Source: an uncultured Roseburia sp. (GTDB lineage: Bacteria; Bacillota; Clostridia; Lachnospirales; Lachnospiraceae). Taken from it: DNA of 64,000 nt. Below the pieces are notes generated by a model. That model saw only the letters and a program-made list of their open reading frames with translations. It had not been told where the DNA came from and made no database searches. Location of the stretch: NCBI GenBank assembly GCA_947062675.1, contig CAMSQM010000011.1:1-64000 (forward strand). Direction: 5' to 3'. The position numbers and the translations under genes are program-made. This document shows positions 7,528 through 45,205 of the stretch, piece after piece. Positions within the stretch are counted from its first letter, which is position 1, and each line of letters opens with the position of its first letter.

Positions 7528-8733
7528 TTATCCCAGCCCGTAATGCCCGGCCAGTTTCTCAAATGCGGGCAGCGAGCGCGCAATCATCTCATGAGAGACG
7601 CAGTATGCCAGCCGGACGTAGCCCGGGCAGCCGAACGCACTCCCCTTTACCATCAGAATATGAAGTTTCTTCCCTTCCCGCACAAACGCCTCTTCATCCT
7701 CTTCCGGAGACTTCACCCAGAGATAGAACGCCCCCTGTGGACGGATACACGAAAATCCCAGCCGCGTCAGCCCCTCATAGAGCATCCTGCGGTTCTGGTC
7801 GTAAAAGGCGAGATCTGTCTTTTCCTCCAGAACCCGCGCGACCGCCCTCTGCATCAGCGACGGTGCATTGACAAAGCCGAGCGTCCTGTTCGCTATGGCA
7901 AGCCCCTGTATCAGCTCCCCGGCCTGCGCGGCCTCGTCCGGAACCACGACATAACCGATCCTCTCTCCGGGCAGCGAGAGAGATTTGCTGAAAGAATATC
8001 CCACCAGCGTATTCCGGTAATATTTTGTGAGAAAATCTTCCCTGCCGCCGTCGTACACAAGCTCCCGGTACGGTTCATCCGATATCAGATACATATCGTG
8101 CATAAATTCCCGTTGTTTTTCTTCCAGAACCGCCGCAATTTTGCGCATCGTCTCAGGACTGTAGACGACTCCTGTCGGATTGTTCGGCGTGTTTACAATC
8201 AGCGCCTTTGTCTTCTCTGTTATCCTGGCGGCAAAATCTTCAAGATCCGGCTGAAACGTCTCCCGGTCCGGCTGCACCGCAACGATCCCGGCGCCGAAAT
8301 TAGCCGCATACTCCCGGTACTCCCCGAAAAACGGCGCAAATACAATGACTTCGTCACCCGGGTTAAGAATCGTCTGAAATATAATGTTCAGACCGCCCGC
8401 AGCGCCAACCGTCATTATAATATTGTGAAAATCAAACGAAGTGCCAAAACGTCTGTTCAGATTTTCCGCCACCGCGGCGCGCACCTGCGGGTATCCCGCA
8501 TTATCCATATATCCGTGCAGCTGCGCAGACCTCTCAGCAGTCGCAGTGCTCTGCGCCGTCAGCTCCTGAACCGCTTCCGCCAGCGACGCAGGAGCGGGCG
8601 TCGCCGGATTGCCCAGGGAAAAATCATAGACATTCTCCGCGCCGACGCGCTCCGCCAGCTCCTTCCCCTCCACGAACATCGCGCGGATCGCGGAGCTTCC
8701 CTCAAGCGCTCTTTTTATTCTCTCTGATATCAT
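7528..8733 (-). CDS. PLP-dependent aminotransferase, aspartate aminotransferase-like
   Basis: 401 residues of the class I/II aminotransferases. NTPNNPTG (181-188), SDEPYREL (218-225) and the PLP lysine Lys250 in YSFSKSLSLPGERIGY are present. The family includes aspartate, alanine and aromatic aminotransferases. The N-terminal stretch MISERIKRALEGSSAIRAMF is typical of a clostridial subgroup annotated only as PLP-dependent aminotransferase. It lies 101 bases downstream of the transglutaminase-like gene and 221 bases upstream of hisC, both on the same strand. Substrate specificity cannot be read from the sequence. Confidence 0.85.
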   Translation of the reverse strand: MISERIKRALEGSSAIRAMFVEGKELAERVGAENVYDFSLGNPATPAPASLAEAVQELTAQSTATAERSAQLHGYMDNAGYPQVRAAVAENLNRRFGTSFDFHNIIMTVGAAGGLNIIFQTILNPGDEVIVFAPFFGEYREYAANFGAGIVAVQPDRETFQPDLEDFAARITEKTKALIVNTPNNPTGVVYSPETMRKIAAVLEEKQREFMHDMYLISDEPYRELVYDGGREDFLTKYYRNTLVGYSFSKSLSLPGERIGYVVVPDEAAQAGELIQGLAIANRTLGFVNAPSLMQRAVARVLEEKTDLAFYDQNRRMLYEGLTRLGFSCIRPQGAFYLWVKSPEEDEEAFVREGKKLHILMVKGSAFGCPGYVRLAYCVSHEMIARSLPAFEKLAGHYGLG

Positions 8734-8834
8734 GGGAAACCTCTTTTCCTGTTCTGTTGACTCTGTGCCCTGTACTTCCGTCTCCCCGGCACTTAATCCT
8801 GTTACCCTTTCAGAATAAACGGTAATAATCTTAT

Positions 8835-10079
8835 TTATGACGTCATGCCGCTGTTGAAATGAAACGTCAGAACTTTCTGCTGTTCATCCTCCATATAGTA
8901 CAGACTGTGCAGGCCCTCACAATAATCTGCGATATGCCCCTCTTTTGTAAAATACTGTTTTGCCTGCCGGTAAAGCTCCTGCGTCGCAAATTTCAGGGAC
9001 ACCGCCACCTCCCCCGCGTCGTAGGCCGTTTTAAGGACACTGCCGGCCGCATCAGGCGCCCACTCTGAAAAATACCTGCCCTCCCGTATAAAATAATTAT
9101 TGCGGGTGGCTGTGGCCTCCGGCAGCCGGATGTAATCATTTGCCCTGTGACTCTCCGCGATCTCCCGCGAAGTCACGCAGAAATAACTGTAATTGATAAA
9201 GCGCTGCATTCCGATATCGCTCCCGGCATAGGCGGAATTTCCCCACGTCGTATCTATGTAATAGTATTCCCCGTCAAGCTGCGCCAGATTCCAGGCGTGC
9301 GGTTCTCCGTTTGCCTCTCCCGTCACAACCGCCGACCGGATCCCCTGTTCCCAGAGCAGATACTGCGTCGCGTTCGCATAGCCCTGACAGACTGTTTTTC
9401 CATAGAGAAAAACACTGATAATATTCTGATTCTCCGCGGCTCCCGCGTCATAATCCACATTGGAGGCCAGATATTCAAAGACATACCTTGCCTTCTCATA
9501 GTCCGTGGCCCCCGCGGCAATGCCCGCGAGAACCGCCTCCGTCCTTTGATCTATCTGTGCCTGCGTCTGATCGCGCTCACTCCTTGTCATCGTATATTGC
9601 GGCGCAAAATCCAGCGCCACGAGCTCATCTCCTCTTGTATACTGTGTGTACACATAACCGGACACCCAGAAAAGGCCGCCATAATCCGCACTCACTGCCT
9701 TATAGGCCGCATCGAGCACCAGAATATCCAGGGTGTCAACCCGTATCTTCTCCTCATGCGCGAGTATGGCGTTTAAAATCTCATCATAGACCCGCTTTGT
9801 CACGTCATCGAGTGTTGCGTAGGCATAGCGGTCCGTGGAAATACTTGCAACCGGCTCCAGCCCCCCGGGCACCTGTTCGCCGGCCTGTCCTCCTGTGCGA
9901 TTCAGCCGGCCGAAGACTTCCTCTATACGGCTTTTCCCCCAGGACGGCAGCCCCGCCATATTTTCGGCCATACTGCCGGACCCCTGGGTGATATCCACTC
10001 CCGTGAATCCGCATTTGAGCAGAAATACTGCAAAAAGCAGACTTCCTGCCAGAATCACTGCTCCCGCTCTCTTTTTCAC
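8835..10079 (-). CDS. membrane-anchored or secreted transglutaminase-like protein
   Basis: 414 residues. An N-terminal hydrophobic segment (7-22) follows MKKRAG, so the protein is exported or membrane-tethered. The cysteine after it (LLKCGF) is a poor lipobox. The transglutaminase-like fold contains a complete Cys-His-Asp triad: Cys231 in GKTVCQGYA, His261 in GEPHAWNL and Asp276 in YYYIDTTWG. Such proteins are usually proteases or peptide-crosslinking enzymes at the cell surface. The stretch before the core (82-190) is not recognised. The gene starts 22 bases after the aminopeptidase stop, suggesting co-transcription. Confidence 0.8.
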   Translation of the reverse strand: MKKRAGAVILAGSLLFAVFLLKCGFTGVDITQGSGSMAENMAGLPSWGKSRIEEVFGRLNRTGGQAGEQVPGGLEPVASISTDRYAYATLDDVTKRVYDEILNAILAHEEKIRVDTLDILVLDAAYKAVSADYGGLFWVSGYVYTQYTRGDELVALDFAPQYTMTRSERDQTQAQIDQRTEAVLAGIAAGATDYEKARYVFEYLASNVDYDAGAAENQNIISVFLYGKTVCQGYANATQYLLWEQGIRSAVVTGEANGEPHAWNLAQLDGEYYYIDTTWGNSAYAGSDIGMQRFINYSYFCVTSREIAESHRANDYIRLPEATATRNNYFIREGRYFSEWAPDAAGSVLKTAYDAGEVAVSLKFATQELYRQAKQYFTKEGHIADYCEGLHSLYYMEDEQQKVLTFHFNSGMTS

Positions 10080-10100
10080 GATTCCTCCCGTCCCCGTTTC

Positions 10101-11429
10101 CTACAGTGAAAAAAATGCCTCCACCAGACTTTTCAGCGCCTCCTGATCCGCGCTTCCCATCAGTTCCCGCGCAGAATGCATCGCAAGAAGCGGCACACCG
10201 ATATCCGCGGACCGGACCGGAAGAAGCGATGCGGCCACCGCCCCCAGTGTGCTGCCCCCCGGTATATCCGAGCGGTTGACAAATTTCTGACACGGAATCT
10301 GCCGCTTAGCGCAGATTTCCTGAACAACCGCAGACATCTCACAGTCCGTCGTATAGGACTGTGAACATGCCTCCTTGATGCAGACGCCGCTGCCCGTCAG
10401 CGGTCTGCTGGTCGGATCCATCTTTCCCGCCTGATTCGGATGCAGACCGTGCGCCACATCCACGGACAACAGCATGCTCTGATAAAGCATACGGTCCGCC
10501 TGCGCCGCTCCCATCCCCAGACAGTTCAGAATACGCAGCATCATATCGTGCAGAAGAATGGAACCTGCCCCCTGTCTGCTGCGGCTCCCGACCTCTTCGT
10601 GATCAAACAACGCGATCAGATTGATTCCGTCCGCGCGCTCCGCATCGAGAATCGCCGACACCAGGGCTGCGCAGGATGTCAGATTGTCCAGCCTTGGCGC
10701 AGAGATAAACTCGTCATGAAGTCCCACATACTCCGGCTCCTCCCTGCAGTATACCGTCAGCTCATAATCCAGAATCCGCTCCCGCTCCACACCAAGTTCA
10801 TCCGCCAGAAAAGCTAAAAATACCCCCTGCTCCTCTCCGGAAAGGAGTCCTGCAACCGGCATCAGATCCGTCTGCCGGTTGAGTTCAATGCCCTTATTCA
10901 CCTCACGGTTCATGTGAATGGCGAGATTGGGAATCGTGAGCAGATTTTTATCTGATACAAAGTCCATCAGCTCCGGCACAAACGGATTGACGCCTCTGAC
11001 TGCCACGCGCCCCGCAACGCCGAGCGGCCGGTCCAGCCAGGTATTCAGAATCGGGCCGCCATATACCTCCACATTGACCTGCGCATAGCCATTCGCCGCA
11101 ATATCTGCCGCAGGCTTTATCCGAAGACACGGGAAATCCGTGTGTGCCGCTGCCAGACGGATCTGCGGTCCCATGCCACCGCACGCCCTGCCATTTCCGC
11201 CCGCGGCATGGTCATCCGTCCCTGTTAATTTTCCTACTGTAAATGCAAATAAAGTCGTATCGTGATGGTTTACATAATACTTTCCGCCCTCAGTCAGCTT
11301 CCAGTCGTCCGCATATTCCGTTCTCTGAAATCCCCCGGCTGCAAGCCTCTCCTCACAGGCGCGCACCGAATGCACCGGCGATACCCCTTTGCGCACCAGA
11401 TCAAACAGAACCTCCTTCTCGTCCCTCAT
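10101..11429 (-). CDS. apeB: M18 family aminopeptidase
   Basis: 442 residues, a dinuclear-metal aminopeptidase of the M18 family that removes N-terminal residues, often acidic ones, in the cytoplasm. The metal site shows RLAAAHTDFP (His96, Asp98), LFDHEEVGSRS and the C-terminal HSARELMG motif. The start at 11429 (MRDEKEVLFDLVRKG) is chosen because AAGGAG precedes it and the extra 33 residues of the longest frame are not family-like. The spacing to the ATG is short. Transcribed divergently from the DUF5721 gene. Confidence 0.87.
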   Translation of the reverse strand: MRDEKEVLFDLVRKGVSPVHSVRACEERLAAGGFQRTEYADDWKLTEGGKYYVNHHDTTLFAFTVGKLTGTDDHAAGGNGRACGGMGPQIRLAAAHTDFPCLRIKPAADIAANGYAQVNVEVYGGPILNTWLDRPLGVAGRVAVRGVNPFVPELMDFVSDKNLLTIPNLAIHMNREVNKGIELNRQTDLMPVAGLLSGEEQGVFLAFLADELGVERERILDYELTVYCREEPEYVGLHDEFISAPRLDNLTSCAALVSAILDAERADGINLIALFDHEEVGSRSRQGAGSILLHDMMLRILNCLGMGAAQADRMLYQSMLLSVDVAHGLHPNQAGKMDPTSRPLTGSGVCIKEACSQSYTTDCEMSAVVQEICAKRQIPCQKFVNRSDIPGGSTLGAVAASLLPVRSADIGVPLLAMHSARELMGSADQEALKSLVEAFFSL

Positions 11430-11532
11430 CGCTCCTTTTCCTTTCCGCTTATTTTTGTAATTGCCGGATACACCTGCACACGATGTGCACCCAGGCGGCT
11501 CATTCACACTCCGGCGCGTAATATCCAATGAT

Positions 11533-11573
11533 ATTATACCATATTGTCTTCCCGATATAAATAGTGTTATAAT
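11533..11573. promoter_or_regulatory. overlapping divergent promoters, aminopeptidase and DUF5721 gene
   Basis: On the plus strand TTGTCT (11544-11549), 18 bases, TATAAT (11568-11573) would serve the DUF5721 gene. On the minus strand TGGTATAAT (11533-11541) is an extended -10 for the aminopeptidase. The two overlap, so transcription from each may interfere with the other. Confidence 0.45.
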
Positions 11574-11607
11574 AAGAAAAAATCAGCTTTATGAAACGGG
11601 GAAATGT

Positions 11608-12114
11608 ATGATAGCACTCAGTATCGTTGAAATCAGGGATTTTATGAACAAACTGCTCTGCAAAGAAACATTCGACAATTTTTTACTGAAAGAAGCCGTT
11701 ATCCAGAGCAGCGTCACCTGGTCGCTGGACGGAACGCTCGTCACCGGATTTTTTTCAAAAGAAGAGCTCGAAGCAGAAGGCCTCACCGGATTTTCATTTC
11801 TTCCGTTCAGGCACATACGCAATCAGTGCTATCATCTGATTAAAGGAAAACGGACCCCTTCCTGCTTCAAATTTGTATTTCTTCTCTCGCCTGCGAACCT
11901 TGCCCGTACACTGGCGCAGACACACAGCACTTATCAGCCGCAGGACATCACCGGCATGTTTCTCAACCTTCTGTTTCAGGATAATCGCCTGATCCTGACC
12001 ACAGGAATCTCCTACCGCATCTTCTCCACTGACAGGAGGCTGGAGCAGGAGTGGGATATACTGGTCAGGCGCTTTCTGAAAAATCACGAAATTACATTCG
12101 AAGAGCTCTCCTGA
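11608..12114 (+). CDS. DUF5721 family protein
   Basis: 168 residues, recognised by overall pattern as a small conserved protein of Lachnospiraceae (DUF5721). It starts MIALSIVEIRDFMNKLL and contains FLPFRHIRNQCYHLIKGKR in the centre and TTGISYRIFSTDRRLEQEWD near the end. No membrane segment, signal or known catalytic motif is visible, so it is likely cytoplasmic. The start at 11608 has GGGG seven bases upstream and excludes 49 non-conserved residues. The function is unknown. Confidence 0.7.
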   Translation: MIALSIVEIRDFMNKLLCKETFDNFLLKEAVIQSSVTWSLDGTLVTGFFSKEELEAEGLTGFSFLPFRHIRNQCYHLIKGKRTPSCFKFVFLLSPANLARTLAQTHSTYQPQDITGMFLNLLFQDNRLILTTGISYRIFSTDRRLEQEWDILVRRFLKNHEITFEELS

Positions 12115-12250
12115 TCATCCTGACGGTCGCCACCGTTATAATTTTAACAAACTTTTTATTTTTTTACTTTACTTTTGGCTCCTGGTATGTTATGGTTATG
12201 GTGTCTGTAGCTGAAAGCACAGCAAAAATATTTACAGGAGGTACTTTGGG

Positions 12251-12451
12251 ATGAAGGGTACGGTAAAATGGTTTAACAACCAAAAGGGTTACGGATTCAT
12301 ATCCGATGAAGAAGGAAATGACGTATTCGTACATTACTCAGGACTGAATATGGAAGGATTTAAGTCCCTCGAAGAAAGTGCTGCGGTAGAATTCGAAGTC
12401 GTAGAAGGTTCCAAGGGACCTCAGGCAACCAACGTGACGGTGCTCAAATAA
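12251..12451 (+). CDS. cold-shock protein, CspA family
   Basis: 66 residues, a single OB-fold nucleic-acid-binding domain that acts as an RNA chaperone. RNP1 is KGYGFI (residues 14-19) and RNP2 is VFVHYS. An AGGAGG site lies eight bases before the ATG. The leader of about 135 bases is AT-rich and contains TTATAATTTT near 12134, a plausible -10 without a clear -35. Long leaders are usual for cold-shock genes. A strong terminator follows. Confidence 0.93.
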
Positions 12452-34282: not shown

Positions 34283-34312
34283 AAAAAGCCGGGGATTCCC
34301 CCGGCCTTTTTT
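34283..34312 (-). terminator. terminator after the sulfation operon
   Basis: In the minus direction GGCCGGGGG, AAT, CCCCGGC, then TTTTT. A preceding A-run makes it symmetric. It closes the cys-sulfotransferase operon. Confidence 0.85.
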
Positions 34313-34361: not shown

Positions 34362-34397
34362 GGGTGAAACAGTCCGGTATTCCGGACTGTTTCACCC
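34362..34397 (-). promoter_or_regulatory. 16-bp perfect hairpin covering the sulfotransferase stop codon
   Basis: GGGTGAAACAGTCCGG (34362-34377), TATT, CCGGACTGTTTCACCC (34382-34397). The TGA stop codon lies within the stem. No uridine tract follows directly, so it is probably a 3' protection element or part of a tandem terminator. Confidence 0.6.
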
Positions 34398-35534
34398 ATT
34401 CTCTGCAAAACGGCTCCACAGTTTGTGCCAGACCGTGCGCAGCGGATGGCGCAGTTTCTCCTTCAGATCTGCCAGTTCCTGCCTCAGCCGCTCATTTTCC
34501 GCGTGCATCTCCGCAAATCCCTGTCCGGCAAAGCGGATGATGTCATCCTCCATCAGCGTGCTCTCTCTCCTCCACCTGGGCAGATCGGGAATATCCATGT
34601 CAAACAGGTCTGCGTCTGGTTCCCCCAGATATTCTTTTGCGACGCGCCGGTTTCCCGCCCGGTATTTTTCCAGGAATTCCGCCGTCTCCTCCACAGAAAA
34701 CATACTGTATTTCCTTTGTATATCCGGCTCCTGCGCGCATTTTACCAGCGTGATCCGGAGAAACCGCCTCTCTTCCTCCCCAAGTCCCTTCATGCCATTT
34801 AAAATACGCTTTATTTCGTGCAGATTTCCCGCCAGGCGCACATTGCGCACTTCCTTATTTATCACATACGCATCCGTCAGCGTCAGACCGGCCGCATCCA
34901 GAAAATCTGCATAAATCGAACCTCCGCAAAAATGTCCCGGCTCATAGCGGCGGACAATCAGATTATCTTTTCCGAGCGCCGCTGCAATGGTCCCCAGCTT
35001 CTTATCATAATTCAGCTGACGGATTTTCGGGATATGGGCCATATACTCATCCCAGCTTCTGACTGCATTCTGTTCCACGCCCATTTTCACCACCTGATTC
35101 CAGGAAGAACTCAGATAGCCATCCTGCCTGCGCAGATAGACCATGATTTTCACCTGAAAACCGGCCTCCTCCCGCACCGCTGCAAGCTCCCGCCACAGAC
35201 TTTTCCTCCGTTTAAACGTGGCCATCCAGATACCCTCGTCCGACAGGATCACGGCCTCATACGTCCGGAAAAGCTCCGCAATCCGCTCCATGCCGCGGCA
35301 AAAAATCTGCCGCTCTGCTTCCGCGCAGACGCGCCCGTCCGCATCTTTCACAGATTCCACAAGAAAATGCCCGTTGCGCACGGACCGGAAATCCGGACAC
35401 AGCCACGTGAAATCCGGAAAACAGTATCCATGCCGCGCAAGTTCCTCCGCATTGTCCTGACAGAATCCCTGGATCGCCGTCGTTCCCGTCTTCGGTGTAC
35501 CGATATGAATATAAAGTGTTTTTCTTCCGTTCAT
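34392..35534 (-). CDS. PAPS-dependent sulfotransferase
   Basis: 380 residues. The 5'-phosphosulfate loop of sulfotransferases is at residues 12-19 (GTPKTGTT, in YIHIGTPKTGTTAIQ). A candidate 3'-phosphate site is MVYLRRQDGYLSSSW, with Arg135/136 and Ser143/144 eight residues apart. The end (about 345-372) is a charged coiled coil, HAENERLRQELADLKEKL. No signal or membrane segment is seen, so sulfation would occur in the cytoplasm. The start at 35534 follows GGAGG; an ATG overlapping the cysNC stop (35567) is a weaker alternative. The gene sits directly after the PAPS-forming genes. The acceptor could be a glycan, lipid, steroid or phenol. Confidence 0.82.
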   Translation of the reverse strand: MNGRKTLYIHIGTPKTGTTAIQGFCQDNAEELARHGYCFPDFTWLCPDFRSVRNGHFLVESVKDADGRVCAEAERQIFCRGMERIAELFRTYEAVILSDEGIWMATFKRRKSLWRELAAVREEAGFQVKIMVYLRRQDGYLSSSWNQVVKMGVEQNAVRSWDEYMAHIPKIRQLNYDKKLGTIAAALGKDNLIVRRYEPGHFCGGSIYADFLDAAGLTLTDAYVINKEVRNVRLAGNLHEIKRILNGMKGLGEEERRFLRITLVKCAQEPDIQRKYSMFSVEETAEFLEKYRAGNRRVAKEYLGEPDADLFDMDIPDLPRWRRESTLMEDDIIRFAGQGFAEMHAENERLRQELADLKEKLRHPLRTVWHKLWSRFAENG

Positions 35535-35563
35535 TCTATCCTCCGCGCGCCGCGCCCTGTTCT

Positions 35564-37390
35564 TCATAAATATTTCTCAATTCCGGCCAGAAGCAGACCG
35601 GCACACTCCTCCACACTCCGCCCCGTCGTATCTATCACGATATCGGGAGATTCCGGCACCTCATAGACACCGGAAATGCCGGTAAATTCCGCAATCTCTC
35701 CGGCCCGCGCCGCCTTATAAAGCCCCTTTGTATCCCGCCGCTCACACTCCGCGAGAGGCGTGCTCACATAGACTTCCGTAAAATTTTCCCCGATAATCTC
35801 CCGCGCCATCCTCCTGTCGGGGCGGTAGGGGGATATCGACGCGGCCAGCACAATCAGGCCGGCATCGTTCATCAGTTTCGCGACCTGCGCGATTCTGCGG
35901 ATATTTTCGATCCTGTCCTCCTCCCCGAAACCGAGGTTTTTGTTCAGGCCCATGCGCACGTTATCTCCGTCCAGAATCATTGTATGCTTTCCCATTGCAA
36001 ACAGGCGTTTTTCCACCTCGTTCGCGATCGTGGACTTTCCCGCGCCGGACAGGCCTGTCATCCAGACCGTAAACGCCTTCTGCCCCATCTGCGACTCGCG
36101 CAGTTCCCTTGTGATATCCATTTCATGCCAGGTCAGATTATTTTCGCGCACAATTTCCTGTTCCACAACGCCGCACGCACACGTCATATTGCTAAGCCGG
36201 TCCATCAGAATCAGGCTGCCGTGTTCCCTGCTTTCCGCAAATGTGTCAAATACCACCCTGCTCCCCATGGAAATCTCACAGAACGCAATCTCATTTTTAT
36301 AAATGGTCTCCGCAGACACCTCCGCTCCGGTATTGACGTCCACCCTGTGGCGGATTTTCATGACCGTGGCCGGAACCGTCTGTGTACCCAGTTTCATCCG
36401 GAAATTTCTCCCCGCCACCAGATTTTTGTCATCCATCCACAGCAGATACGCCGCCAGCATGGAACCTGTCTTTAACGTCGTATCCTTCCCGAGAACACAG
36501 CCCCGCGACACATCCGTCTCTGTGGCCAGCCGGATTGTGACAGCCTGCCCCTTTTCGCAGCGCTCAACACTCTTATCCCCGTTGAGAATCTCCGCCACAG
36601 CGGCTTTCTGTCCGCCCGGAAGCACGGTCAGGATATCCCCGACCGCAAGGCTCCCGGACGCGGGCTGCCCCTGAAATCCCCGGAACAGGCGGTTCGGACG
36701 GCAGACGCGCTGCACAGCCATCGAAAATCCTCTGCCCCCGCAAGGCTCCCCCGTCTCCACTGTCTCCAGATAAGGCAGCAGTGCCGGCCCTCCGTACCAG
36801 GGCATCCTGACCGATTTTTCCGTGATATTATCTCCCTCCGTCGCCGAGACCGGTATCAGCTGCACCTGCACGCCGTCCGCCTCCGCCATCAGCACCCGGA
36901 CATCTTTCCTGATTTTTTCAAACTTTTTCTGATTGTAGTTCACCAGATCCATTTTGTTTACCGCAAACACAAAATGCCGGATTCCCATCAGCGCGCAGAT
37001 ACGCGCATGACGTTTTGTCTGCATCAGCACCCCCTGGCTGGCATCCACCAGAATCACGCACAGGGAGGCAAAAGAAGCCCCGACCGCCATATTTCTCGTA
37101 TATTCCTCATGCCCTGGCGTATCCGCCACAATAAAATTCCGCCGTCTGGTCGTAAAATAGCGGTACGCCACATCTATGGTGATACCCTGCTCCCGCTCCG
37201 CCATCAGTCCGTCCAGCAGCAGCGAATAATCCAGTCTGCCATCAGCAGAACCCTTTCCGGAATCCAGCTCCATCGCCCTTCTCTGATCGGCAAAAATCAG
37301 CTTTGCATCGTAGAGCATATGTCCGATCAGCGTTGATTTTCCGTCATCCACGCTCCCGCAGGTAATAAATTTCAGCAAATCCTTTTCCAT
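35564..37390 (-). CDS. cysNC: sulfate adenylyltransferase subunit 1 / APS kinase fusion
   Basis: 608 residues. Residues 1-430 are the CysN GTPase: CGSVDDGKST (11-20), DTPGHEEYTRNM and FAVNKMDLV. Residues 443-608 are the CysC APS kinase: GLSGAGKST (446-454), LDGDNVRMGL and SPYRPDR, with the FTGISGVYE lid. With CysD it makes APS from sulfate and ATP; the kinase then makes PAPS. The ATG follows directly after the cysD stop. The fusion is like NodQ, where PAPS is made for sulfating a signal molecule. Confidence 0.93.
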   Translation of the reverse strand: MEKDLLKFITCGSVDDGKSTLIGHMLYDAKLIFADQRRAMELDSGKGSADGRLDYSLLLDGLMAEREQGITIDVAYRYFTTRRRNFIVADTPGHEEYTRNMAVGASFASLCVILVDASQGVLMQTKRHARICALMGIRHFVFAVNKMDLVNYNQKKFEKIRKDVRVLMAEADGVQVQLIPVSATEGDNITEKSVRMPWYGGPALLPYLETVETGEPCGGRGFSMAVQRVCRPNRLFRGFQGQPASGSLAVGDILTVLPGGQKAAVAEILNGDKSVERCEKGQAVTIRLATETDVSRGCVLGKDTTLKTGSMLAAYLLWMDDKNLVAGRNFRMKLGTQTVPATVMKIRHRVDVNTGAEVSAETIYKNEIAFCEISMGSRVVFDTFAESREHGSLILMDRLSNMTCACGVVEQEIVRENNLTWHEMDITRELRESQMGQKAFTVWMTGLSGAGKSTIANEVEKRLFAMGKHTMILDGDNVRMGLNKNLGFGEEDRIENIRRIAQVAKLMNDAGLIVLAASISPYRPDRRMAREIIGENFTEVYVSTPLAECERRDTKGLYKAARAGEIAEFTGISGVYEVPESPDIVIDTTGRSVEECAGLLLAGIEKYL

Positions 37391-38284
37391 TCAGAAATAT
37401 CCCTCACGCTTTCTTTTTTCCATACTTGCACTTCCACCGTCTGAGTCTATGATACGGCTCGTCCGCTCCGATTCCACGGCCGCCAGCGTTTCCTGCACGA
37501 TCGCGTCGAGCGTATCCGCCTCCGATTCCACGCCGCCCGTCAGCGGATAGCAGCCCAGCGTCCGGAAGCGCACCTTTTTCATCTGAATCTCCTCGCCCGG
37601 GCCCAGACGCATTCTCTCATCATCCGCCAGAATGATATTTCCGTCACGAATCACCACCGGTCTCTCCTTCGCGAAATAGAGGGAGACAATCGGGATCGAC
37701 TCCCTCCTGATATACTGCCAGATATCCGCCTCCGTCCAGTTCGACAGCGGGAATACCCGGATACTCTCCCCCCTGTGTATCTGCGTATTGTACAGCTTCC
37801 AGAGTTCCGGACGCTGATTTTTCGGATCCCACGCGTGATTGTGATCGCGGAACGAAAAAATCCGCTCCTTTGCGCGCGACTTTTCCTCATCCCGTCTGCC
37901 GCCGCCGAAAGCCGCCGTAAATCCATATAGATCAAGCGCCTGCCTGAGCGCCTGCGTTTTCATGATATCTGTGTATGCCGCCCCGTGGTCAAACGGATTG
38001 ATCCCTTCCCTGACGCCGTCCTCATTGATATATTCCAGCATCTCAATCCCCATCTTTTCCGCCGTCTCATCCCGGAATGTGATCATCTCCCGGAATTTCC
38101 ATGTCGTATTGATATGTAAAAACGGAAACGGCGGTTTTTCCGGATAAAATGCTTTCAACGCCAGATGCAGCATAACGGAAGAATCCTTGCCGACCGAATA
38201 CAGCATCACCGGTTTTTCACATTCCGCCGCCACCTCCCGCATAATATAGATCGCTTCCGCCTCGAGCTCTTCCAGATGGTCCAT
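37391..38284 (-). CDS. cysD: sulfate adenylyltransferase subunit 2
   Basis: 297 residues. PP-loop ATP pyrophosphatase with [15 protein letters not shown] near residue 30, the block [37 protein letters not shown] and [18 protein letters not shown], all typical of CysD. The ATG at 38284 follows GGAGG and fits the family start. A GTG 54 bases upstream (38338) has a perfect GGAGGTGAT site and is in frame, so an 18-residue longer form is possible. First gene of the sulfation operon; its stop is adjacent to the cysNC start. Confidence 0.92.
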
Positions 38285-38377: not shown

Positions 38378-38650
38378 TTAAAAACGCATTAAAAAATGGG
38401 AAAACACAGCGTTCTCCCATCTGACACCATTTTTGCTCCATTTTTTCATCTCTTCCACCAATACATCATCCGAACATGACAATATAAATCCATGCTCATC
38501 TGCAATGTGGAATCAAATACATGTTATCCATTTTTTGCATTCTGTTATCAAATCAATATCCTCCCTTGACAGGCCACACAGTCCGCCTATCCTCATACCG
38601 TTTTCCAGCACAGGCACAAAAAGATTGTAATATCCTGTTCACTCATGCCT
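38378..38650 (-). pseudogene. tyrosine recombinase (integrase) remnant
   Basis: With frame changes the minus strand reads EQDITIF, then VPVLENGMRIGGLCGLSRED and IDL, a phage-integrase-like core start. Further on it reads MSMDLYCHV and then DDVLVEEMKKWSKNGVRW. These resemble the C-terminal end of a Lachnospiraceae integrase (…MDLYCHVTDDTLVEEMKK, from memory). Several stops and shifts interrupt it and the catalytic centre is missing. It lies between the AT-rich island and the sulfation operon. Confidence 0.55.
38390..38420 (-). terminator. terminator upstream of cysD
   Basis: ATGGGA (38396-38401) and TCCCAT (38415-38420) form a short stem with additional pairing in the loop. In the minus direction TTTTTT follows. 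It would insulate the sulfation operon from readthrough. Confidence 0.5.
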
Positions 38651-38783: not shown

Positions 38784-39350
38784 TCAATATAATTTACTCA
38801 TCTTTTTTAAAAGTACCGTTATATTTTCATCTATTACTTTATTCGATTTACACACAACATTATTTATTTCATCCGTTGCCATTTCAGTATCTGATTGACG
38901 GATATATTTCTGTCCAATCCTTATAATATCATCTGAATTTTCAATAATTTTCTTTTTGAACTGATCAAATTCAATATCACAACCAAAAGCTCCAAATACC
39001 ATATTATATGTATCACTCCATACTGTAATAATTTTGTTCATGTCACTGAAATATTTCAAAAAATTATTATATCTCTCTACGCGTTCTTCAGGATTTCTTC
39101 TACTCAATGCATTCTCAAGTTCCAGTGTTATTTCCATCATATCTTTTTTTATTTCATGAAGCCACTGAAGCATTTTCTCACAATAATCAAGCTGTAAACT
39201 CTTTTTTCTGTACAGCAAATCTCTTTTTTGAGAAAAAAAGTTATTCAGAAAAATCGCCAGTAATGCCACAAATGTCGGCACAATTCCTTTGAATAATTCC
39301 ATAATCAGATCAACCCAAGGATACAGCTTTATTAAATCATCATAACTCAT
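38784..39350 (-). CDS. hypothetical single-pass membrane protein of the AT-rich island
   Basis: 188 residues, not recognised. One membrane helix near the N-terminus (residues about 18-36, LFKGIVPTFVALLAIFLNNFF) is followed by a long helical, mostly charged cytoplasmic part. Base composition is much more AT-rich than the flanking genes. The start at 39350 (MSYDDLI) is chosen because AAGGATGG lies eight bases upstream; two earlier in-frame ATGs (39362, 39356) overlap that site. No neighbour explains its role. Its island location and low GC suggest an acquired gene, possibly defence-like, but nothing specific is seen. Confidence 0.6.
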   Translation of the reverse strand: MSYDDLIKLYPWVDLIMELFKGIVPTFVALLAIFLNNFFSQKRDLLYRKKSLQLDYCEKMLQWLHEIKKDMMEITLELENALSRRNPEERVERYNNFLKYFSDMNKIITVWSDTYNMVFGAFGCDIEFDQFKKKIIENSDDIIRIGQKYIRQSDTEMATDEINNVVCKSNKVIDENITVLLKKMSKLY

Positions 39351-39473
39351 ATACATTACCATCCTTAACTTAATTATTCAGAGTAATTATACCATTACAA
39401 ACATAAATATACAATCACCAAATCCATTTTCTGTTATCAGGATACAATTCACCAGAAATTTTCACTAAAATTC

Positions 39474-39704
39474 CTATCTCTCCCTTTCATTATTGTCCAC
39501 AATGAACAACCTTATCCACATAAAATTCAATATAACAGCAGTTGAATATATATCCGCTTTTGCGCTTAACTCTTCATTTTGGTCCTGTGTAAGTTCTTTA
39601 TAGCCAGTATTGATACTTTTTTCTCCAGATAAAACTTCTTGCTTTAATGTTTCATTATTAGAATCAGGAATTTTTTTACCTTTAGCATATGTATCAGTGG
39701 ACAC
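39474..39704 (-). CDS. hypothetical small ORF, possibly a fragment
   Basis: 76 residues from a GTG. Middle part is polar (SGEKSINTGYKELTQDQNEELS), then a hydrophobic run (STAVILNFMWIRLFIV) close to the end. The ribosome site is weak. It could be the tail of a decayed gene. Confidence 0.25.
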   Translation of the reverse strand: MSTDTYAKGKKIPDSNNETLKQEVLSGEKSINTGYKELTQDQNEELSAKADIYSTAVILNFMWIRLFIVDNNERER

Positions 39705-40502
39705 ACCTGTTGTTTCTAAATTTTACACGTACATCAGTTTTATTTTCATTTACAGTTGCTGAATAATTTTCCGAAAACTATTCTGACTTATTTTTCTCAT
39801 TTGCTTTTCATAAACAGGTCTATACTTCTCAGCAACAGCAATTCTCTGAACATGAGAAGTATTACGCCTGCCTGGTTTTGCATTAATCATCCATTCCTAT
39901 CCCCGTAATTCGCTCATATAAGCCTCCAAATACATTAAGCAATAATTATCATTCCAGGCATAAAATCCCTTATATGGTCAAAATACAGCCATACAATAGA
40001 TATGTAGCAACGGGCTGGTATTATTTTCTCATGCTTTCATATATTCCTCACCGTGCAATTTAGCAAACCATATATTGTATGTTATATCACAATTTAATCT
40101 ATATATTGTATTCGAAATCAAGTAAAAGAGGAATTTTATTGGCGCAATATTCTACACCAACGGCAAAACCCAGATTATCAGAAAATATTTTTTCAGACCC
40201 TGTTCATCTTCGATATAAACATGCAATTCGTGAAACATATCTGTTAATTCTTTTCATCCAAACATCCTATCCCCATCTACTGCGCCGTGGATATGGCATC
40301 CGATATCGTCCAAAATCATATTACATAGCATACACTTGTGATCCTCGTCTTGGATGTATGTAAAATATTTAATATATTTTTCTCTACTCATTTTTTTAAT
40401 CATTATCGAACCCACTGAAAAACGCAAAAAGAAGCGCCTTCAAGAAAAAAAATACGCTCTCAATGGCACTCCTGTTCTATAATATCCCCATTACTTTCCG
40501 GC
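39705..40502. other. AT-rich spacer of the island without a convincing gene
   Basis: About 800 bases of low GC. A 46-codon minus frame at 39750-39890 starts MINAKPGRRNTSHVQRIA and includes EKYRPVYEKQMRKIS; it is basic and may be a fragment. The remainder, including a plus frame at 40079-40363, shows no ribosome site or recognisable protein. Several TATATT-rich stretches lie near 40060-40130. Confidence 0.5.
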
Positions 40503-40937
40503 TTATTCCAGCTCATCAACCGTAATGCATCTGATTTCCCTGAACTGCCTTAACTGTTTATCATTTGTAAGGAACAGATCGCATCCTGTGATACAGGCTG
40601 TCGCAATTTGCAAGGCATCCATGGACTTAAATCCTTTATACTCTGCCCTTATCCATGCCGCCTTTTTCGCGATATTCCTGTCAATATCCATTACACACAT
40701 TCCGAGTGTACGGATCAGCCTTTCAAACTGGTCAACATATCCCTGCTCATGATTCCTGTATGGAAAAACACTGTATTCCACAACGGTGATCACGGATGTA
40801 TAAAGGTCTGTGCCTGCGCCATAACAGTCCATAAAAAATCTTTTAACCCTGTCAGAATACTGCAGGTTATCCCTGCTCCCTTCAATAAAATAAATAAACG
40901 GTGCAGTATCCACAAATACTTTTTCAAAACCTGTCAT
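40503..40937 (-). CDS. PIN-domain toxin, VapC-like
   Basis: 144 residues of the PIN ribonuclease fold. The acidic residues of the active site are seen in VFVDTAPFIYFIEG (first Asp), VITVVEYSVF (Glu), FKSMDALQIATA (third, Asp) and LFLTNDKQLRQF (fourth, Asp). Such toxins cut RNA and block translation. The start overlaps the antitoxin gene by 14 bases, the classical arrangement with the antitoxin first. Confidence 0.82.
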   Translation of the reverse strand: MTGFEKVFVDTAPFIYFIEGSRDNLQYSDRVKRFFMDCYGAGTDLYTSVITVVEYSVFPYRNHEQGYVDQFERLIRTLGMCVMDIDRNIAKKAAWIRAEYKGFKSMDALQIATACITGCDLFLTNDKQLRQFREIRCITVDELE

Positions 40938-41145
40938 TCCCGCGCAACTCCCTTATATATTCATCAACATTCTGTCCCCGTTCACTTGGCATTACAAAAC
41001 TGTCCCAGTCCACGAGGGGGCGCTCCTTTCTTTCCGGATAATCCAGAAGTGTGACAATGACCTCAGCCCCGTCATATTCCCGCATATCCTCATCCTTGAT
41101 GATAACCGTATTTCCCTTTATGACCCCTTTCACTGCCGCAAGCAT
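40924..41145 (-). CDS. antitoxin paired with the PIN toxin
   Basis: 73 residues. The N-terminal half (MLAAVKGVIKGNTVIIKDED, with a following YDGAEVIVTLL) is a beta-rich, AbrB/Phd-like DNA-binding part. The C-terminal half (WDSFVMPSERGQNVDEYIRELRG) is helical and likely binds the toxin. The gene is first in the pair, with GGGGGAA before the ATG. It probably represses its own promoter. Confidence 0.72.
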   Translation of the reverse strand: MLAAVKGVIKGNTVIIKDEDMREYDGAEVIVTLLDYPERKERPLVDWDSFVMPSERGQNVDEYIRELRGNDRF

Positions 41146-41578: not shown

Positions 41579-42895
41579 CTACATCCCTGGCAGAAACAGA
41601 GTAAACGTACTTCCCTCTCCCGCCCCGCTCACAGCTGTGATACGTCCGCCGTGTCTGAGCGCAATTTTTTGGGCGAGCGGAAGCCCCAGACCAATCCCCT
41701 GTGAATTTCTGGATTTATCTTCTTTATAAAAACGCTGAAAGATCCGCTCAAGCTCTTCCTCCTTTATCCCGCACCCGTGATCGCGGACAGAGACATAGAC
41801 CTCACCGTCTTTTGTGCCGGTTTCCACCTCAATCCCGCCGCATCCGGCGCCAAATTTAATGGCGTTTGTCAGCAGATTCCGGAAGGCAATCATAATCAGA
41901 CTGATATCGCCGGAAGTCTCCGCCTTATTCAGCCGCATTTCGATCGCCACGCTCTCCCCCGCTTTTTCCTGCTCGTCCTCGCAGACAGACTGCACAATTT
42001 CCACCAGATCAATCTCCTCTCTGCGGATCTTTGTCTGCTCCTGATCCAGGCGGGAGAGATGAAGCAGCTGCGCAATCATCGCATTGATTCTGCCAGCCTG
42101 CCTCTCTATCACCTCAAGCGCTTCCAGAAGCTCTTCCCTGCTCTGCTCTCTCCCGGCGACAGACTGGCACTGGGCTGAAATGACGGCGACCGGCGTCCGA
42201 AGCTCGTGCGCCGCGTCCGATGTAAACTGCTCCTGCTCCTTTACCGCATGCTCGATCCGGTCCAGCATACGGTTCTCCGCGTCTGTTAAAACGGCAAGCT
42301 CATAAAAACGGCTGTTATGTTCCATGCGCTCTGAAATGCTGAAATCCCTGCCGATCGTCTCCGCGGTCCGGCACATGCCCTTCAGTGATCCTGAGATCCG
42401 GCGTCCCAGCACAAGCCCGCAGACCGTCACAATGCCAAATACAGCCACAATACTCAGGTAAGAAAAATATTCCAGGGTCTGATACCTGCTGAAAATATCC
42501 GCCCTGCGCACCACCCCCCGCATAATATAGCCTGTCCCAAGCGTTTTAATCTTCTGCATATCATGCACATAAAAAGTTTCCCCCCGGCATTTCACAATCC
42601 GGGTGTGATTGAGCGTGGCGCCTTCGTCCGGCACAAATTTATCCGGATAGCTTCCCGCCACAACTTCCATTTTATCGTTTAGAAGAAGAAAGTAAATTCC
42701 ATCCTGTTTCTGCTCATATCCTTCCGCAAAATACAGCTCCCCATCCCGGATCTCAATATATTTGAGGTTCCTGCGGACTTCCCGTGCCAGATTCTGCCGG
42801 ACATCATACTCCACGGCCACATTCGACCAGATATTGACAAACAGAATCTGCACCACCGCCATCACAAATGCGGCCATCGCAAGCGGAACCACCAC
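41579..42895 (-). CDS. sensor histidine kinase
   Basis: 438 residues from a GTG. Two membrane helices (about 2-22 and 145-167) enclose an external sensor of about 120 residues. A HAMP-like linker follows, then the H-box AAHELRTPVAVISAQ, the N-box NLLTNAIKFG and the G-boxes DHGCGI and GIGLGLPLAQK. The start is uncertain: the frame remains open upstream, but no better codon is found, and the GTG has no strong ribosome site, so coupling to the response regulator 23 bases upstream is likely. The ligand is not known. Confidence 0.88.
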   Translation of the reverse strand: MVVPLAMAAFVMAVVQILFVNIWSNVAVEYDVRQNLAREVRRNLKYIEIRDGELYFAEGYEQKQDGIYFLLLNDKMEVVAGSYPDKFVPDEGATLNHTRIVKCRGETFYVHDMQKIKTLGTGYIMRGVVRRADIFSRYQTLEYFSYLSIVAVFGIVTVCGLVLGRRISGSLKGMCRTAETIGRDFSISERMEHNSRFYELAVLTDAENRMLDRIEHAVKEQEQFTSDAAHELRTPVAVISAQCQSVAGREQSREELLEALEVIERQAGRINAMIAQLLHLSRLDQEQTKIRREEIDLVEIVQSVCEDEQEKAGESVAIEMRLNKAETSGDISLIMIAFRNLLTNAIKFGAGCGGIEVETGTKDGEVYVSVRDHGCGIKEEELERIFQRFYKEDKSRNSQGIGLGLPLAQKIALRHGGRITAVSGAGEGSTFTLFLPGM

Positions 42896-42918: not shown

Positions 42919-43593
42919 TTACGTCTCCCCTTTTAATATATATCCCACCCCTCTGATCGTCTGAATCATTTTAAACGGAAAATCATCGTCCATTTTTTTC
43001 CGCAGGTAGCGGATATAGACATCCACAACATTGGAGTAACCATCGCTCTCCCCGTCCCAGATATTGGCCGCAATCTGATCCCTGGTGACGACAATATTCT
43101 GATTGCGGATCAGGAAGAGAAGCACTGAAAACTCTTTTGGCGAGAGATCAATCTGCTTCCCTTCCCGCTCCACGGTATGGCAGTTTAGGTCCATGGTAAG
43201 CGCGCCGCAGCGGTAGATATTTTCCCGCACATTCGCTTTTTTTCTCGTCATCACCCGGACCCTTGCGAGAAGTTCCTGAAAGGCAAAGGGCTTTGCCATA
43301 TAATCATCCGCCCCGATATCCAGCCCCTCGACAATATCCGCCGTGCCGTCGCGCGCCGTCAGAAACAGCACCGGCGTCTGCACCCCTCTGCCGCGGGCCC
43401 TCCTTAAGACCTCAAACCCGTCCATCCCCGGCAGCATGACATCCAGGATCACACCGTCATACTCTCCCAGACACAGATAATCACATGCGCTCTCCCCGTC
43501 ATGGCAGGCGTCCACAATATAGCCTTCGGATTCCAGCTTCTGCGCGATAATCCGGTTTAAATCCTTTTCGTCCTCCACCACAAGTATTCTCAT
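42919..43593 (-). CDS. response regulator, OmpR/PhoB family
   Basis: 224 residues. Receiver domain with the acidic pair in VVEDEKD, the phosphorylated aspartate in GVILDVMLPG and Lys in DDYMAKPF. The winged-helix output domain ends with NVVDVYIRYLRKKMDDD and TIRGVGYILK. It is the partner of the kinase encoded just downstream. The ATG is 15 bases after the polyphosphate phosphotransferase stop. Confidence 0.92.
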   Translation of the reverse strand: MRILVVEDEKDLNRIIAQKLESEGYIVDACHDGESACDYLCLGEYDGVILDVMLPGMDGFEVLRRARGRGVQTPVLFLTARDGTADIVEGLDIGADDYMAKPFAFQELLARVRVMTRKKANVRENIYRCGALTMDLNCHTVEREGKQIDLSPKEFSVLLFLIRNQNIVVTRDQIAANIWDGESDGYSNVVDVYIRYLRKKMDDDFPFKMIQTIRGVGYILKGET

Positions 43594-43608: not shown

Positions 43609-45078
43609 CTAATCCAGTATTTTTTCCAGCTCACCGATTACAATCTTCAGCGCCTTAATCCGCGCATACCGCTTATCCACGGACTCCAGAATATGCCACG
43701 GGGCATAGACGGTGCTTGTCTTTGCAATCATTTCATTCACCGCGGTCTCGTACTGATCCCATTTCTCCCGGTTGCGCCAGTCCTCATCCGTGATCTTCCA
43801 CTGCTTCTCCGGTGTGTTCTGCCGGTCGTTAAAGCGCGCGAGCTGGGTGTCTTTGTCGATCTGCACCCAGAATTTGATGATCACCGCGCCCCAGTCATGA
43901 AGCTCTTTTTCAAATTCATTGATTTCATTGTAGGCGCGCATCCAGTCGTTTTCGCTGCAGAAGCCTTCCAGACGCTCCACCATAACCCGGCCATACCAGG
44001 TGCGGTCAAAAATGGCAATATGCCCTGTCTTGGGCAGTCTTGTCCAGAAACGCCACAGATAGTGTCTCGACTTTTCGTGCGGCTCCGGACTGGCGATCGG
44101 ATGCACCTCATAGCCGCGCGGGTCCAGCGCTCCGGTGATCCGCCTGATATTGCCTCCCTTTCCCGCCGCATCCCATCCCTCATAGGCGATCACAACGGGG
44201 ACTTTTTTGCGATAGAGGCGGTTGTGCAGCTCTCCCAGACGCTGCTGCAGGTGCTTTAACTCCGCCTTATATTCCTCCGCCTCAATCGTCCCGTCCAGGG
44301 CGATCTGCGAAAGCTGCGGCATCTGCGTGAGCGGAAATACATTCTGCAGAAGCGGCACCGCCATCGCACGGTTGCCAAGGGCGATCTCTATGCCCTGCGT
44401 CAGCATCTCAAGTACCTGCGTCTCGGCCCATTTTCTGGATCTGGCATCAATGATATACCAAGGCGCCGAGGGCATGTTCGTCTCTTTCAGATAGCTGTCA
44501 AACGCATCCTCACATTTTCCGTAGTGCGTATTCTGCCACTGGTCATGCTTTCCGACACGCCATCTCGTGTCTTTTGACTCCAGCAGGCTTTCAATGCGTT
44601 TCTTCTGCTCTTTGCGCGAAATATGAAGGAAAAACTTCATCACAAGATACCCGTTGTCCGTGAGCTGCCGCTCGAAGCGTTTAATGCTCTCAACCCGCAT
44701 CGCATACTCTGCATCCGTCATTCCGTCATAAAGCTTTCCTTTGATCACCTCATCCATCCAGCCGGAATCCAGAAACTGAAACTTTCCGGCCTCCGGAATT
44801 CTGGTAAAATGGCGGCAGAGAAACGGCTTTCTCTGCTCCTCCACGGTCGGCTCCTCCATCGAGGCCACCTTAAAGAAGCGGGGATCAATGTTTCTGATGA
44901 TCTGCCCGATGACAAATCCCTTGCCCGCGGTTCCCCAGCCCTCCACCAGCACCAGGACGGGCAGCTTCTGCTCCTTCACCTGCATCTGCTGCTGCATGAG
45001 CCTGTTTCTGGCCGCCGTAAGGCGGGCGGATATTTCCTCTTCCTGCGGTTTTTCTGTCCCGTTCCATTCCTTCAGCAT
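43609..45078 (-). CDS. pap: polyphosphate:AMP phosphotransferase, two-domain PPK2 type
   Basis: 489 residues with two tandem PPK2 domains. These enzymes phosphorylate AMP to ADP with polyphosphate. The second domain has the full Walker A EGWDAAGKG (300-308), FDRTWYGRVMVERL and the lid basic residues. The first has VEGWGTAGKG (45-54), in which the usual Asp-Ala is Gly-Thr, so it is probably not catalytic. The start at 45078 (MLKEWNG) has AAGGTG six bases upstream. It precedes a two-component system on the same strand. Confidence 0.87.
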   Translation of the reverse strand: MLKEWNGTEKPQEEEISARLTAARNRLMQQQMQVKEQKLPVLVLVEGWGTAGKGFVIGQIIRNIDPRFFKVASMEEPTVEEQRKPFLCRHFTRIPEAGKFQFLDSGWMDEVIKGKLYDGMTDAEYAMRVESIKRFERQLTDNGYLVMKFFLHISRKEQKKRIESLLESKDTRWRVGKHDQWQNTHYGKCEDAFDSYLKETNMPSAPWYIIDARSRKWAETQVLEMLTQGIEIALGNRAMAVPLLQNVFPLTQMPQLSQIALDGTIEAEEYKAELKHLQQRLGELHNRLYRKKVPVVIAYEGWDAAGKGGNIRRITGALDPRGYEVHPIASPEPHEKSRHYLWRFWTRLPKTGHIAIFDRTWYGRVMVERLEGFCSENDWMRAYNEINEFEKELHDWGAVIIKFWVQIDKDTQLARFNDRQNTPEKQWKITDEDWRNREKWDQYETAVNEMIAKTSTVYAPWHILESVDKRYARIKALKIVIGELEKILD

Positions 45079-45205
45079 GTATGGCACCTTCTTTCTTTCC
45101 CGAAGAAAACTGTTTTTTAAATGATAACATAATTTACATATTTTGTCATGACCAAAATCCCCTCCGGAAACACCGTCCGCACTTTTTTGTGACTCTTATT
45201 CCTCC

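Follow-up and report, generated by a model that had tools for sequence, protein, structure and literature searches.

An operon pairing PAPS synthesis with an unnamed sulfotransferase in an uncultured Roseburia, and its possible role in modifying cell-envelope glycans

We have analyzed a stretch of 64,000 nucleotides from an uncultured Roseburia sp. (contig CAMSQM010000011.1, positions 1 to 64,000, hereafter called the window), in which open reading frame (ORF) analysis places three minus-strand genes head to tail at positions 34392-38284: cysD, cysNC and a gene for a third protein that is very probably a sulfotransferase dependent on 3'-phosphoadenosine 5'-phosphosulfate (PAPS), as judged from its fold, its sequence motif and its gene association. 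With less assurance, we favor the view that the three genes form a module devoted to sulfation, which acts on a membrane-linked surface glycopolymer. A previous reading of the window, made from sequence only, had proposed that these genes form a unit that both makes and uses PAPS, and this proposal agrees with the fold of the third protein, the invariant residues of its PAPS site, the co-occurrence of CysNC with its relatives and the absence of a recognizable CysH. The third protein belongs to a family of sulfotransferases that Pfam and NCBIfam leave unnamed, for which our results, if correctly interpreted, would provide the first handle.

The operon and its sulfotransferase

The first gene encodes CysD, the small subunit of ATP sulfurylase (37391-38284, minus strand), which matches TIGR02039 with 476.9 bits, above the curated NCBIfam cut-off of 396.6; its ORF opens at a GTG (38338), and the ATG preceded by a Shine-Dalgarno sequence gives a protein of 297 residues. 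The second encodes a fusion of 608 residues (35564-37390, minus strand) combining the GTPase subunit of ATP sulfurylase, CysN, with the kinase of adenosine 5'-phosphosulfate (APS), CysC. It matches NF004035 with 805 bits (curated cut-off 715), its two parts being recognized by TIGR02034 (residues 6-409) and TIGR00455 (residues 421-601). The ATG of cysNC directly abuts the stop codon of cysD, and 29 bases separate the stop of cysNC from the ATG of the sulfotransferase gene (34392-35534, minus strand). The longest ORF of the latter reaches 35567 and would encode 391 residues; because a GGAGG site precedes the second ATG (35534), we consider the protein to have 380 residues, the same length as in the sequence-only reading. 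Coordinates, strand and profile scores all agree with the tight operon described there, consisting of CysD, a CysN-CysC fusion and a protein with the loop GTPKTGTT.

This loop is present in the third protein, which on its own matches none of the Pfam sulfotransferase models, including Sulfotransfer_1, and no NCBIfam model; a single-sequence search of PHROGs returned nothing useful, and phmmer against the PDB found no significant solved structure (we attribute to chance the matches with polyphosphate kinase 2, at E 0.6). Its predicted structure, obtained with a mean confidence (pLDDT, predicted local distance difference test) of 93.9, nevertheless shows the P-loop fold of sulfotransferases, on the basis of both the model and its fold matches, and alignments of the family include the protein. 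The identity suggested previously is thus sustained by the predicted structure, yet not by profile searches with this sequence alone. Among its relatives, seven of the 28 family members scanned match Sulfotransfer_1 weakly (best E 1.6e-4), and one duplicated relative exceeds the Pfam cut-off of this model (25.2 bits vs 22). Moreover, residues of the PAPS site are nearly invariant in the proteins of the 79 loci that we have analyzed: K26 is present in 77, and T27, R146 and S154 in all 79, the last two being spaced eight residues apart. We take loops of the K-T-G-T-T type to bind the 5'-phosphosulfate and the R...S pair to form the 3'-phosphate site. Three results must be set against this identification. 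The TM-scores of sulfotransferases retrieved by Foldseek at E <= 0.001 are low (0.25-0.57); four of the ten matches at this threshold are P-loop kinases or zeta toxin; and family profiles searched against the PDB reach 3rnl, a sulfotransferase of Alicyclobacillus acidocaldarius, at E 0.036 in one search and 0.48 in another, both values being non-significant.

The third protein bears a coiled coil and a basic tail at its C-terminus. Across the family, the last 28 residues have a mean net charge of +5.6 vs -0.2 elsewhere, and the charge is +3 or higher in 73 of 79 proteins, which suggests that membrane binding may occur through this tail; that of the window protein carries only +2, and 26% of shuffled sequences match its amphipathicity. 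Searching the whole genome retrieved no other sulfotransferase of the family, nor any recognized by Pfam elsewhere, although the same Pfam model also misses the window's own protein.

Relatives of the sulfotransferase and the nature of the acceptor

The distribution of the family was evaluated in 299 genomes of the bacterial family and 62 genomes of the genus, together with a GTDB search that yielded at least 447 stretches encoding homologues, from which the 79 loci were kept for analysis; these sets, and an initial set of 20 regions, share genomes, so their counts are not additive. Homologues at E <= 0.001 are present in 18 of the 299 genomes, that of the window included, with E < 1e-30 in 14, and in 15 of the 62 genomes of the genus. 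The GTDB matches listed comprise Lachnospiraceae, Eubacterium, Roseburia, other Clostridia and more bacteria, and include the cultured Roseburia faecis M72 and Eubacterium oxidoreducens DSM 3217, in which our interpretation could be directly tested. A full or nearly full CysNC fusion occurs in 31 of the 299 genomes (one, G029, being partial) and in 13 of the 14 genomes with strong sulfotransferase matches (Fisher p 1e-13), the fourteenth (G171) having a CysN-like match and an APS-kinase gene beside the sulfotransferase. The pattern is similar in the genus, where the fusion is present in 13 of 15 genomes with the sulfotransferase vs five of 47 others; one exception (G300) has a separate APS kinase adjoining the sulfotransferase, and the other (G349) is a 61%-complete genome. 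CysD and CysNC lie beside the sulfotransferase in nine of the 20 regions of the initial set.

The genes surrounding these relatives, together with the kinship of the fold, point to a cell-envelope glycan as the probable acceptor. In structure comparisons with the predicted model, glycan sulfotransferases score at least 3 Z units above every SULT listed. One relative locus (L118) contains a tandem array of five sulfotransferase genes followed by genes for a pyruvyl transferase, a CDP-glycerol glycerophosphotransferase and an IspD/TarI-type protein. In another (L132), two adjacent genes (7737-12379), each with two complete sulfotransferase domains and hence four in all, are found with CysNC amid genes of teichoic type; two glycerophosphotransferases and an ABC-2 permease are encoded upstream of them. 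Glycerophosphotransferase genes directly precede cysD in L110 and L135, and one lies approximately 3 kb upstream of cysD in L099. Overall, a cluster for a polyol-phosphate polymer holds the sulfotransferase in L144, L110, L118, L132 and L135, a situation not found in the window.

The closest sulfotransferase found within the genus, 48% identical to that of the window, belongs to genome G348, where its gene closes a polymer cluster and overlaps a GDPD-domain gene by four bases. Ten genes of this cluster match, at 50-87% identity, a teichoic-acid-like polymer cluster on another contig of the window's genome (L162:1-16590, contig C59), which contains a priming glycosyltransferase, a LicD-like gene, an ABC exporter, three glycerophosphotransferases and a terminal GDPD-domain gene; the matches above cut-off comprise the priming glycosyltransferase (TIGR03025) and the ribitol- and glycerol-phosphate cytidylyltransferases (NF001183 and TIGR01518). 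Contig C59 ends 449 bases past the GDPD gene, and this break limits what can be deduced there. The CysNC fusion of G348 resides on a contig apart from its polymer cluster, as the PAPS genes of the window's genome do. We infer that the polymer of C59 is the best single candidate for the acceptor; the narrower proposition that the acceptor is specifically a teichoic-acid-like polymer is tentative, and we consider it less likely than not.

Several observations weigh against the proposed role. The operon has no known activity or product, and kinship of fold does not prove the class of the acceptor. Polymer genes do not adjoin the sulfotransferase in the window's own genome, C59 being another contig, and many relatives have unrelated neighbors such as pyrG and housekeeping genes. 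The enrichment of glycerophosphotransferases in operon runs is mild (10/400 vs 6/617, p 0.07). Neither CysD nor CysNC is present in 43 of the 79 loci, many of which are on short contigs. Finally, the clade of the window protein (eight members in total, support 0.96) includes L145 and L146, both adjoining genes that by eye resemble those of the flagellar rod.

The last observation is in line with a different envelope or secreted acceptor, such as the glycan of a flagellin, a glycolipid or a capsular polysaccharide with no relation to teichoic acids, as are the genes of glycosyltransferase or polysaccharide type in L088, L157, L090 and L093; the basic tail would suit any membrane-linked acceptor. 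The direct operon links confirmed by Pfam are instead with CDP-glycerol glycerophosphotransferases, and we regard this alternative as a minority possibility, though a serious one. Less plausible is that the PAPS of the operon serves to sulfate steroids, bile acids, phenols or other xenobiotics, in the manner of SULTs and of the steroid sulfotransferase reported from Bacteroides: the distance in Z units separates the protein from SULTs, and the five-gene array, the two-domain duplications and the polymer-gene neighbors better fit the decoration of a polymer at specific positions. The acceptors originally listed, namely glycan, lipid, steroid or phenol, can be provisionally narrowed to an envelope glycan on these grounds.

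Sulfate supply, sulfate reduction and control of the operon

In the mechanism that we propose for the sulfation of an envelope glycan, sulfate would enter the cell via an importer and be converted with ATP to APS by CysD and the CysN part of the fusion, the CysC part then phosphorylating APS to PAPS, reactions which are established for these protein families. The third protein would move the sulfate from PAPS to a hydroxyl on a lipid-linked envelope glycopolymer, a step that may take place on the cytoplasmic side of the membrane, ahead of polymer export. The basic tail may keep the enzyme near the membrane in most family members, the case being weak for the window's own protein, and a two-component pair encoded upstream may tune sulfation to an outside signal.

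Possible importers emerge from the neighbors of the relatives, whose most frequent operon partners are CysNC (33 loci) and CysD (28), followed by a CHR-family transporter (13, plus two outside runs); sulfate ABC transporters are present in three relative loci, with TIGR00971 above cut-off in L075, and SsuA-type ABC systems in five. These CHR-family and ABC transporters are putative sulfate importers. In three loci (L151:9004-11136, L152:3537-5672 and L153:9387-11714) the sulfotransferase ORF continues, in the same frame, into a lipoprotein of the substrate-binding kind, which resembles SsuA in two of the loci and Sbp in the third, with an apparent lipoprotein signal and lipobox; these may be either fused genes or overlapping starts, and the lipoproteins are consistent with a role in handling sulfate. 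A search of the window's genome found no importer of Sbp or CHR type, which counts against the scheme, and such a candidate was dropped.

No reductase of APS, PAPS or sulfite was found among the neighbors scanned around the operon, as stated in the sequence-only reading. Across the window's genome, PF01507 matches only CysD, a 443-residue DUF3440 protein and a 582-residue protein of contig C8. We considered the latter as a possible assimilatory reductase and rejected it: given its matches to the BrxP and SspD models and the accompanying matches to SspA, SspB and SspC, we assign it to a set of the DNA phosphorothioation type. In this region (L058:8787-16193) SspD-, SspB-, SspC- and SspA-like genes lie in a row, resembling a defense set of that type with a protein of PAPS-reductase fold. 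None of 14 genomes with the sulfotransferase, the window's included, has a CysH scoring above the TIGR00434 cut-off, a result to be read with the fact that only seven of 14 control genomes exceed the cut-off, so that a divergent CysH could be missed; CysH-like proteins occur in three other genomes. Sulfite or nitrite reductase domains are found elsewhere in the window's genome, in a NirA-type protein (L057) and a NIR_SIR-domain flavoprotein (L059), which make sulfite reduction possible, while sulfate reduction via CysH is not evident. With respect to reduction genes elsewhere in the genome, on which the sequence-only reading was to be judged, the outcome is divided: no CysH is above cut-off, and sulfite or nitrite reductase domains are present. 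In the survey of relatives, CysD and CysNC both accompany the sulfotransferase in 29 of the 79 loci and one of them does so in a further seven (some proteins labeled CysNC being APS kinase alone), the other 43 loci having neither partner. It is very improbable that the operon belongs to a conventional pathway of assimilatory sulfate reduction and that its third gene has another role: CysD and CysNC do serve assimilation too, and the two proteins with sulfite or nitrite reductase domains would fit it, but CysH is wanting within the detection limit given above, the CysH-like protein of the genome is SspD-like and the third protein has a sulfotransferase fold.

Control of the sulfation module is probably exerted by a response regulator and sensor kinase encoded 3.3 kb upstream of cysD on the same strand, as suggested by gene neighborhoods. 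The sensor histidine kinase (41579-42895, minus strand; HisKA and HATPase_c) has a rare sensor domain, and the OmpR-type regulator (42919-43593, minus strand; Response_reg and Trans_reg_C) is separated from it by 23 bases. In 94 relative loci read for this pair (the 79 plus 15), a kinase homologous through the sensor domain occurs in ten, with a partner regulator 61-74% identical; in eight of them the pair immediately precedes the gene for APS kinase, CysD or the sulfotransferase, and in two it lies 1.4-4.7 kb off. The sensor is found at E < 1e-20 in only four of the 299 genomes, three of which carry the sulfotransferase. Other loci have a different type of kinase near the sulfation genes, with similarity confined to the kinase part. 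Neither the upstream pair nor the presence of close relatives in clusters of teichoic type had been noticed in the sequence-only reading.

The interval between cysD and the kinase pair (38784-41145) is occupied by two ORFs without assignment and by a gene of PIN type with its likely partner. The two ORFs, of 192 and 76 residues, are not recognized by Pfam; the PIN-domain gene and the small ORF that it overlaps look like a toxin-antitoxin insertion. On the other side of the pair, a co-oriented PPK2-type polyphosphate kinase gene (43609-45087) precedes the response regulator gene by 15 bases; PPK2 was dropped as a member of the module, no homologue being found in other loci at the threshold used.

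Upstream of cysD, a 12-pair hairpin with a T run behind it (38394-38422, minus strand; -18 kcal/mol, z -3.4) is a putative terminator of the upstream unit or a leader attenuator. A perfect 16-pair hairpin without a T run spans the stop codon of the sulfotransferase (34362-34397, minus strand; -35.5 kcal/mol, z -9.0), and a stem resembling a terminator, with T runs on either strand (34288-34305; z -4.2), lies between the operon and the next gene downstream, for a peptidase M19. Terminators had been proposed at both ends of the operon; T-flanked stems do lie on both sides, the stem at the stop codon lacks the T run, and their function is predicted. Promoter-like sites in the window do not exceed chance (eight found vs 6.2 expected), Rfam gives nothing at gathering level and ARAGORN detects no tRNA within the window.

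Novelty and comparison with known systems

A PAPS module tied to one sulfotransferase is of an already known type; what is new here is the unnamed and expanded clostridial family of sulfotransferases, its kinase pair and its contexts of teichoic type. Neither this family with its envelope context nor the phrase 'sulfated teichoic acid' was found in the literature searched, which covers few subscription journals. The broadest interpretation of our data is that the glycan sulfotransferases of gut Lachnospiraceae form a large family, so far uncatalogued, which comes with PAPS synthesis, sulfate import and two-component control of its own and builds sulfated teichoic-acid-like polymers. This interpretation is speculative, and we consider it less likely than not. 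Were it true, sulfated surface polymers would be a product of a common group of gut commensals, and the Gram-positive envelope would bear a heparan-like modification, possibly switched by an external signal. Such polymers could be read by host lectins, sulfatase-bearing neighbors or phages, and ideas on envelope charge, host lectin binding, resistance to antimicrobial peptides and competition for gut sulfate would have to be rethought.

In the NodPQ-NodH system of rhizobia, CysD and a CysN-CysC fusion feed PAPS to a dedicated sulfotransferase, the acceptor being a lipochitooligosaccharide signal. The window operon resembles that system in gene content; it differs in coming from another phylum and host, and no nod genes turned up, in searches that were not aimed at them. 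The steroid sulfotransferase clusters of gut Bacteroides also combine PAPS synthesis genes with a sulfotransferase, having a sterol as acceptor, and the likeness is that of a gut commensal with the same pairing of genes.

Sulfated capsules offer another parallel. The cluster of Cobetia marina KMM 1449 is described as containing a bifunctional cysN/cysC gene, cysD, cysQ, a sulfate permease and sulfotransferases (PMC11766843), and that of Vibrio sp. KMM 8419 as having PAPS genes with sulfotransferases (PMC11641403); the sulfate of both surface polysaccharides has been shown chemically (PMC11766843, PMC11641403). The window shares with them the pairing of PAPS genes with a sulfotransferase. These capsules belong to Gram-negative bacteria and have PAPS genes inside the polymer cluster, for which no teichoic-acid-type genes are described (PMC11766843, PMC11641403), whereas the polymer genes of the window's genome are on another contig and the polymer is predicted from them.

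The heparan sulfate N- and 3-O-sulfotransferases (8ccy, 1nst, 1t8t) are eukaryotic enzymes of the Golgi with 9-15% identity to the window protein, whose C-terminal part, with the long coiled coil and the basic tail (model residues 339-390), lies outside the alignment with them.

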